Shown here piece after piece: positions 41,445-42,776 of a stretch of 47,431 nucleotides of DNA (its first letter is position 1; each line of letters begins with the position of its first letter). The notes under the pieces were generated by a model that saw only the letters and a program-made list of their open reading frames with translations, ran no database searches and was not told where the DNA came from. The position numbers and the translations under genes were made by a program. The stretch spans positions 1 to 47,431 of the forward strand of contig JAJRQY010000146.1 in NCBI GenBank assembly GCA_024280015.1, in the 5' to 3' direction. Source of the DNA: Actinomycetes bacterium. GTDB taxonomy: Bacteria > Actinomycetota > Acidimicrobiia > Acidimicrobiales > SZUA-35.

Positions 41445-41924
41445 ATGTCCACCTTTCACGACCTAGCCATGACATCCATCACCGGCGAGCAGATCAGCTT
41501 CGCTACCTACCAGGACAAGGTCTGCCTGGTCGTGAACGTCGCCAGCGCCTGAGGCCTTACTCCCCAGTACGCAGGTCTGCGTACTCTTCATGAAGACAAC
41601 AAGGATGCTGGCTTCACTGTTCTTGGCTTTCCATGCAACCAGTTCGGCGCCCAGGAGCCCGGCAGTGATGCCGAGGTTCTCGAATTCGCGACCTCCAACT
41701 ATGACGTGACCTTCCCAATGTTCTCCAAGATCGAAGTCAACGGAGATGGTGCCGCTCCGTTGTACAACTTCTTGAAGACTGACCATCCCGACGAGGACGG
41801 CAACTCCGACATTGTTTGGAATTTCGCCAAGTTCCTCGTTGGACGGGACGGAACCGTGCTCAAGCGCTACGCCCCGACCGTCACTCCAGAAGAAATAGCG
41901 GCAGAGTTGGCGAGCTTTCTCTAG
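41445..41924 (+). CDS. Selenocysteine-containing glutathione peroxidase (in-frame UGA at codon 36)
   Basis: The frame from the ATG at 41445 is open to a TAG at 41922 except for one TGA at 41550-41552. Read as selenocysteine it gives 159 residues with a complete GPx fold: VNVASA-U-GLTPQY (Sec36), GFPCNQFGAQEP (Gln70) and WNFAKFLVGRDG (catalytic Trp). The sequence around the TGA is exactly where GPx has Sec or Cys. A hairpin with a GGTC loop lies 13-33 bases downstream of the TGA, as bacterial selenocysteine insertion needs. It lacks the oligomerisation loop, so it is a monomeric-type enzyme. GPx reduces peroxides with a thiol donor such as thioredoxin. Ordinary callers would report only the fragment after the TGA (41706-41924). 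Confidence 0.9.
41566..41585 (+). promoter_or_regulatory. Bacterial SECIS-like hairpin in the glutathione peroxidase gene
   Basis: Eight base pairs, AGTACGCA with TGCGTACT, close a GGTC tetraloop (41574-41577). The loop starts 21 bases after the TGA. The apex GCAGGTCTGC is the same as I recall for the E. coli fdhF selenocysteine insertion element, where the loop G-U contacts SelB and lies 18 bases after UGA. Confidence 0.8.
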
Positions 41925-41942: not shown

Positions 41943-42776
41943 GTGACCGAGTCCAGCGTCGACCGCATCCCCGTTTCTTACGTTCAGAAATCGCGGGCCT
42001 TCTATGAGGCCCGCGGTTTTGAACGGCCATACATCTGGGCTCAACACGATGCGGCACCCTTCACCAAGGTCGACAAACCCTTGTCCGAGTCTCGGATCGC
42101 AGTCGTCACCACCACGGTCCCCGTCCACGGTCGAGAAAAGCACGGTCAGGGAGATGCACTCCTCGCTGACGCCCCTAAGGGAAGCACCTACGCCCAGGCC
42201 TGCTCCCCACGTCCTCATCAGATGTACACCAATCATCTGTCCTGGCACAAGGAGGCGACCAATACCAACGATGTCGAAACATTCTTACCGCTGGGACGAC
42301 TCAGCGAGTTCGTGGAGCGGGGCCGGCTCGGCAGTCTCTCATCCCGTTTCTACGGGGTACCGACCAACTACAGCCAACGCGAAACCCGCGAGGACGCGCT
42401 AACCATTGCTCAGTGGTGTCACGAAGATGAGGTTGACCTTGTTTTGCTCGTTCCCCTTTGACCAGTTTGTCACCAGACCGTGAGTCTGGTTGCCCGCCAT
42501 CTGGAGTCAGTCGGCATCCCAACCGTCGTCATCGGCAGTGCCCGAGACATCGTTGAGTATTGCGCAGTCCCCCGCTTCTTGTTTGTCGACTTCCCACTCG
42601 GCAACCCGTGTGGCAGGCCAAACGATTCTGCCATGCAGACTGATCTTGTCGGCCAGGCTCTGAGCCTCTTGGAGAATGCCGCCGTTCCACAGACCACGGT
42701 CAAAGCCACCGCGCAATGGGGCGATGACGATTGGCGAAAGAGTTACATGCGTATCCCTGAGGATTCATCCGACTAG
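41943..42776 (+). CDS. PrdB/GrdB-like reductase-family selenoprotein (in-frame UGA at codon 173)
   Basis: From a GTG at 41943, 18 bases after the peroxidase stop, the frame is open to a TAG at 42776 except for a TGA at 42459-42461. Read as Sec it gives 277 residues. The start (VSYVQKSRAFYEARG), HPHQMYTNHLSWHKE-type region, FYGVPTNYSQRE and DLVLLVPL-U-PVCHQTVSLVARHL match the family annotated as glycine/sarcosine/betaine or D-proline reductase selenoprotein B, with the redox motif UxxC; relatives without Sec carry CxxC. A 7-bp stem-loop follows the TGA. True GrdB and PrdB work in amino acid fermentation, with partner subunits (GrdA, GrdC, PrdA) not seen here, so the function is unknown. It is probably transcribed with the peroxidase gene. 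Confidence 0.85.
42472..42490 (+). promoter_or_regulatory. SECIS-like hairpin in the PrdB/GrdB-like gene
   Basis: ACCAGAC (42472-42478) pairs with GTCTGGT (42484-42490) around a 5-base loop CGTGA. The loop starts 17 bases after the TGA, within the usual distance, and holds a G-U pair as bacterial SECIS apices do. Confidence 0.65.

Follow-up and report, generated by a model that had tools for sequence, protein, structure and literature searches.

A stand-alone PrdB-like gene with an in-frame selenocysteine codon in an acidimicrobial genome, and its kinship with proline and glycine reductase selenoproteins

Proline reductase has been counted among the selenoproteins of the surface ocean since 2005, when the Sargasso Sea survey ranked "Proline reductase (PrdB)", with 42 sequences, third most abundant among the known selenoprotein families; in the available text of that survey, 42 Sec sequences stand against one Cys sequence, D-proline cleavage is assigned as the function, and prdA is not mentioned. 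According to the accessible portions of later papers, the Global Ocean Sampling survey (2008) listed 235 Sec and 110 Cys sequences of PrdB, an ocean survey of 2021 attributed 6.4% of selenoprotein genes to proline reductase, and reviews of 2022 and 2026 retain the proline reductase name. A D-proline-reducing amino-acid fermentation would be unexpected in the surface ocean, yet "PrdB" appears in these sources among the commonest selenoproteins there. As to relatives outside the ocean surveys, our search of the open-access literature returned no paper on such a family in Acidimicrobiia or under the terms PrdB-like or GrdB-like; the latter term led only to two papers on Synergistota.

The locus described here lies in a stretch of 47,431 nucleotides (the window; GenBank assembly GCA_024280015.1, contig JAJRQY010000146.1) from an Actinomycetes bacterium of the order Acidimicrobiales, with a genome of 4.8 Mb that is 96.6% complete. 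When the in-frame TGA is taken as Sec, positions 41943-42776 form a single open frame with the motif LLVPL-U-PVCHQTV. The features of the gene are as follows.

41943..42776, + strand: PrdB-like gene of a predicted selenoprotein, GTG start, 277 aa, Sec as residue 173 (TIGR04483, E 2.7e-24)
42459..42461, + strand: TGA, predicted selenocysteine codon (U173); 61 TGA and 2 Cys among 63 loci, Sec machinery encoded in the genome
42468..42470, + strand: C176 codon, completing the UxxC pair; Cys in all but one of 57 aligned rows, the exception having Asp
42472..42490, + strand: predicted SECIS hairpin, stem 42472-42478 with 42484-42490, loop CGTGA at 42479-42483; from covariation and a synonymous-codon null

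The window genome encodes three PrdB-like paralogues, the other two being 35% and 32% identical to the window protein and each having one in-frame TGA. Throughout the order, 137 PrdB-like matches were found in 62 of 198 genomes, with up to six per genome, and a count from the match rows gave exactly one in-frame TGA in 131 matches and none in six. Three of these six have Cys at the site (G152:C148, G040:C14 and G121:C13), one stops short of the site (G070:C482), and two were outside the reading (G178:C176 and G173:C62). The site was read in 63 loci hand-selected from the matches of the order (the window, its two paralogues and 60 others), and it is TGA in 61 of them and Cys in two. The proline directly after Sec/Cys (P174) is present in all 57 aligned rows, while identity to the window protein over 56 rows is 46% on the 3' side of the TGA versus 34% on the 5' side. 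The alignment (A1), and hence the tree, takes 57 of the 63 loci, as L073, L078, L087, L089, L093 and L096 were dropped to limit its size. At least three switches between Sec and Cys are needed on the tree, which is of the "quick" kind and has 72 rows; L118 was kept out of it owing to a stop in frame upstream of the site, and L114 and L116, being repeats of L059 and L060, were excluded from the tree as well as from the neighbour count and the free-energy test.

Homologues were also collected by a separate pattern scan, which yielded 13 loci, five labelled actinobacterial and eight proteobacterial; all are Cys forms, and since the scan pattern itself had Cys at the site, they are uninformative on the frequency of Sec. 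A phylum-wide search gave matches in 26 of 149 genomes, but those outside the order (27-38% identity, some without TGA) did not enter the analysis, as genuine PrdB or GrdB may be among them. Within the order, L070 (G166:C65:4749-5534) reads PAUPLDHQ, so that Sec is retained and the resolving Cys is changed to Asp (U-x-x-D), and L098 (9560-10456, minus strand, G139:C16), a divergent Sec copy, reads PAUPDCCQN and sits on a long branch.

SelA, SelB, SelD and tRNA-Sec each score above their cut-offs in the window genome. SelB above cut-off or a tRNA-Sec match of at least 55 bits was detected in 58 of the 62 genomes in which a PrdB-like gene occurs versus 65 of the 136 in which none does (Fisher test, kinship ignored), and the four gene-bearing genomes with neither SelB nor a strong tRNA-Sec match are G001, G170, G173 and G178. 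As well, the SelD match of the window genome (L129, G000:C58:4240-5163) has one in-frame TGA, which probably makes its selenophosphate synthetase another selenoprotein.

A stem-loop of SECIS geometry behind the TGA formed part of the original prediction, and it is upheld by both covariation and the synonymous-codon null. Its letters are ACCAGAC-CGTGA-GTCTGGT, its loop begins at the 18th base past the TGA, and its distance to the TGA is fixed across the Sec loci. The 61 Sec loci, of which 60 are distinct, have 88.3% of their cells paired versus 72.1% after shuffling and at most 38.3% in slid registers; two-sided changes were found in 59 cells versus 13.7 when shuffled, and the covariation score is 0.414 versus 0.118 shuffled and at most 0.086 slid; all slid registers fail. 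The number of pairs with any two-sided change (five) is unremarkable on its own (111 of 500 shuffles). Sec genes keep a mean of 6.18 of the seven pairs versus 4.76 (sd 0.12) under synonymous recoding, while the 15 Cys homologues keep 5.53 versus 5.22 (sd 0.24), the null using pooled codon use in both cases. A G occurs in the first two loop bases of 61 of 61 Sec genes versus 9 of 15 Cys genes. The free-energy z of the 45 bases after the TGA gives no separation (Sec -0.87, n = 61, versus Cys -0.46, n = 15; p 0.15). It is the specific seven-pair hairpin, not plain free energy, that separates Sec from Cys genes.

A mechanical list of open reading frames stops at the TGA and gives 42480-42776 as a separate frame, as would be expected if the TGA were a true stop and the frame beyond it a chance or separate gene. 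This reading is contradicted by the conservation of the site, its replacement by Cys, the covariation of the SECIS hairpin and the presence of Sec machinery, and can hardly be credited. Judged by these comparisons, TGA 42459-42461 is a selenocysteine codon and the gene that of a selenoprotein. The frame proposed in the original prediction, through the TGA to LVPL-U-PVCHQT, was therefore confirmed by a site kept as TGA or Cys in the relatives read. Close relatives do not share a genuine stop here, as those read keep the TGA or have Cys, and the frame beyond the TGA is not merely conserved, it is the better conserved part.

PrdB (TIGR04483; Peptoclostridium, Terrisporobacter, Enterococcus, Ligilactobacillus) is the closest described protein, and it resembles the window protein in the place of Sec/Cys, the UxxC pair, the His after the Cys and homology over 216 columns (hhalign against six PrdB: 100%, E 1.3e-51). 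This profile comparison unites the window family with PrdB in a single superfamily. TIGR04483 is also the best curated match of the window protein, but its 85.9 bits do not reach the equivalog cut-off of 300 bits. The signature G-[U/C]-G-T-C-H-R is present in all seven PrdB-type genes read, whereas the window protein has P-L-U-P-V-C-H-Q and its family P-x-U-P-[VL]-C-H-Q; by the limits of the hhalign alignment, the window protein is also about 17 residues longer at the N-terminus and about 14 at the C-terminus. A redox site of the selenoprotein B family had been predicted for the gene; the kinship with PrdB and GrdB stands, while the identity of the site does not, given P-x-U-P-V-C-H-Q in place of G-U-G-T-C-H-R.

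Six of the seven PrdB-type genes are annotated as prdB, and in five of these prdA lies no more than two genes away. Peptoclostridium PrdB (L122), which has the true signature, shows no prdA in the 4 kb displayed, so a lone gene is insufficient to exclude PrdB. The seventh, a PrdB-type Cys stretch on a Paraclostridium plasmid (L123, 6001-6594), lies under no annotated feature. In the window genome, neither PrdA/GrdE (PF09338, a model that does detect a real PrdA as positive control) nor GrdA (PF04723, searched without a true GrdA as control) was found; with 96.6% completeness, a gene could still have escaped the assembly. PF09338 is above its cut-off in 14 of the 198 genomes of the order, and among the 62 with a PrdB-like gene in G030 alone, whose PrdB-like match is itself weak (29% identical); G139 has a match below threshold with two stops. 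The lack of nearby partner subunits noted in the original prediction was upheld by the genome search. Likewise, the gene had been proposed to encode a stand-alone selenoenzyme of undescribed role: the first part agrees with the partners not found, and the second holds for the literature searched, with the reservation that ocean samples have, since 2005, yielded a Sec family under the name "Proline reductase PrdB".

The comparison with GrdB, GrdF and GrdH (PF07355) is similar. The C-terminal part of that profile, positions 200-345 of 347, aligns with the window protein, which lacks the N-terminal half and narrowly misses the PF07355 cut-off (20.6 bits versus 22); against TIGR01918, a GrdB model of 431 positions, the protein of 277 aa is not full length and reaches 37.3 bits versus a cut-off of 65.45. 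Further homologues are carried by Roseomonas and Haematobacter plasmids, where they are annotated as "glycine/sarcosine/betaine reductase selenoprotein B family protein". They are 41-43% identical to the window protein and, like the lone window gene, have no grd or prd gene within the 8 kb displayed to either side, but differ in that Cys replaces Sec; no glutaredoxin gene was found adjacent to them. On the Roseomonas plasmid (L119, 8878-10350), the Cys homologue abuts a gene for a SelO protein adenylyltransferase.

A true PrdB subunit of D-proline reductase, with its PrdA elsewhere in the genome or missed, would account for the best curated match and the hhalign result, for the occurrence of a canonical PrdB with no prdA in the stretch shown, and for the marine sequences that the ocean papers, as far as available, file as PrdB. 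Against it stand the score of 85.9 bits versus 300, the replaced GTCHR signature, PF09338 above cut-off in only one of the 62 gene-bearing genomes and not found in that of the window, and the presence of three diverged paralogues within one genome, which make it a quite improbable reading. Two defining sequence features and the presence of the partner were tested and each failed, and for this reason the window protein is not assigned to D-proline reductase. The name "proline reductase" is probably wrong, or misleading, for a protein of the window type. Instead, we propose, with a probability of roughly 0.6, that it is a stand-alone Sec oxidoreductase of the PrdB/GrdB superfamily, neither a D-proline nor a glycine reductase, which acts as a UxxC dithiol reductase.

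According to this proposal, the selenolate of Sec173 would attack a small electrophilic substrate, Cys176 would resolve the adduct to give a selenenyl-sulfide, and a protein of the glutaredoxin/mycoredoxin type, or thioredoxin, would re-reduce it. Such chemistry would correspond to the "dithiol" half of proline reductase, with no pyruvoyl half to capture an amino group, and the window protein may still work like that dithiol half. Recycling by small thiols would not set the window family apart, given that genuine PrdB is a dithiol enzyme too. L070, with its U-x-x-D site, has no resolving Cys and speaks against the Cys-resolution scheme. An AlphaFold2 model calculated on alignment A1 (pLDDT 89.9, pTM 0.90) has a beta strand at 166-170, then U173, entered as Cys, and a helix at 174-189. 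The UxxC pair thus lies where a helix begins behind a strand, a usual position of a redox nucleophile. The fold itself gave no hint on function, since the search of the PDB returned no trustworthy match (best Foldseek E 0.049; best hit in the VIA fold comparison a LacI-family regulator, Z 8.9, rmsd 6.2, 150 aligned), and the sequence search of the PDB returned no credible relative (best E 0.087).

Directly upstream of the PrdB-like gene lies a second putative selenoprotein gene.

41445..41924, + strand: glutathione peroxidase gene (gpx), PF00255 E 1.2e-41, in-frame TGA at 41550-41552; not a conserved partner

It reads NVASA-U-GLTPQY and ends 18 bases before the PrdB-like gene. Both genes have an in-frame TGA on the same strand with 18 bases between them, and the arrangement is repeated in G166 (L043), which is why a thiol-redox or peroxide-defence protein cooperating with the adjacent Sec glutathione peroxidase was considered. 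However, the pair occurs in 2 of 76 loci, the window and L043, both of the same genus; conservation of the pair in other genomes, raised as a possibility in the original prediction, did not extend past that genus, gpx was dropped as a functional partner, and the cooperation is unlikely. Downstream, on the opposite strand, the window shares an RlmD-like rRNA methyltransferase gene with L043, L044 and L053, together three genera of one family; we read this as a housekeeping gene in local synteny. No partner gene common to several families of the order was seen in the window's own clade, where sharing is at family level only. In the other subfamilies, synteny was found among close relatives only, as far as it could be judged with neighbours called by a crude rule of length and codon position, which small genes may escape.

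The sister clade of the window's branch has a different neighbourhood. It comprises eight rows (SH-aLRT 99), about 43-45% identical to the window protein: L061 and L102, which belong to the order and have Sec, and six Cys forms from Burkholderiales and their relatives. A glutaredoxin gene lies directly downstream on the same strand in all eight, as well as in L118 (Rhizobiaceae, outside the tree), and none was found within 2.5 kb (E 1e-3) beside the other 67 loci, the window's own branch included; some loci have short flanks (L106, L108, L110 and L117 among them), where a missing neighbour means little. The glutaredoxin link was drawn from the loci of one Cys-pattern scan and from L061 and L102. 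Glutaredoxin in L112, L118 and L102 scores above the PF00462 cut-off, and in L112 the genes for the PrdB-like protein, glutaredoxin and a family III CoA-transferase follow one another 2 and 10 bases apart. L112 is labelled Bordetella parapertussis, from a metagenome bin, and its nearest tree neighbour is L111, from a bin labelled Proteobacteria; the label may be wrong.

Among the six Burkholderiales loci, one of which (L110) has a left flank of only 2 kb, glutaredoxin and family III CoA-transferase genes are present in all six, an IclR regulator and a TctC receptor in five each, and a rhodanese, a cupin resembling mercaptosuccinate dioxygenase and a molybdopterin S/N-oxide reductase in three each. 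The L112 cupin, the one copy tested, has mercaptosuccinate dioxygenase as its best solved relative (8vni, E 2.5e-39) and no Pfam or NCBIfam match at 0.001. According to the accessible text of a study on Advenella (PMC5373536), the mercaptosuccinate dioxygenase gene adjoins a rhodanese gene, and a related cluster includes TctC receptors together with an acyl-CoA transferase of family III; its main text, as available, uses none of the words selenoprotein, glycine reductase, sarcosine and glutaredoxin. In the window genome, one PF00462 match is above cut-off, and no relative of mercaptosuccinate dioxygenase was found in a search run without a positive control. With no glutaredoxin beside the window's own branch and no dioxygenase relative in its genome, both the electron donor and the substrate are borrowed from the sister clade. 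It is from that clade alone that the substrate might be suggested to be organosulfur or otherwise thiol-reactive and not an amino acid, a weaker part of the proposal.

The same neighbourhood, with its CoA-transferase, IclR regulator and TctC receptor, could also point to a catabolic role, in which an electrophilic metabolite other than an amino acid (halogenated, nitro or a conjugate) is reductively cleaved or detoxified, as opposed to a role in redox homeostasis. The presence of up to six matches per genome would suit such a role, and the term "GrdB-like" appears, in the part of the work available, in connection with fluoroacetate metabolism of Synergistota. No substrate-specific neighbour was recognised in the window's own clade, though, and we regard this role as rather doubtful, if somewhat less so than cooperation with gpx.

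The ocean "PrdB" resembles the window family in having Sec in a UxxC pair and in being drawn, according to the accessible text, from surface-ocean bacteria, and the surveys of 2005 and 2008 make no mention of a changed motif in that text. The abundant ocean "PrdB" is likely of the window's stand-alone type; if so, many members would be misannotated, and the demand for selenium that they represent would belong to another reaction. A broader suggestion, which we put forward tentatively and consider less probable than its opposite, is that a large selenoprotein family that now goes by the name "proline reductase", the ocean "PrdB" included, is a new class of stand-alone Sec/Cys dithiol reductases, served by glutaredoxin or mycoredoxin and acting on organosulfur or other electrophilic metabolites in aerobic bacteria, the Cys form of Burkholderiales being the reductive step of a mercaptosuccinate-type cluster. 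The window protein represents a stand-alone form within a known superfamily; its active site is altered, its proposed redox partner can be put to the test, and the glutaredoxin-linked Cys forms of Burkholderiales offer a handle on the substrate.

Finally, a longer subfamily was also identified in the order (L075-L079, L081-L084, L086-L089, L093 and L096), with about 350-390 aa from the match start and the site P-x-U-P-[LFE]-C-T-[RG]. Its members have a C-terminal extension, and the one tested (L075) scores above the PF07355 cut-off with 41.3 bits.
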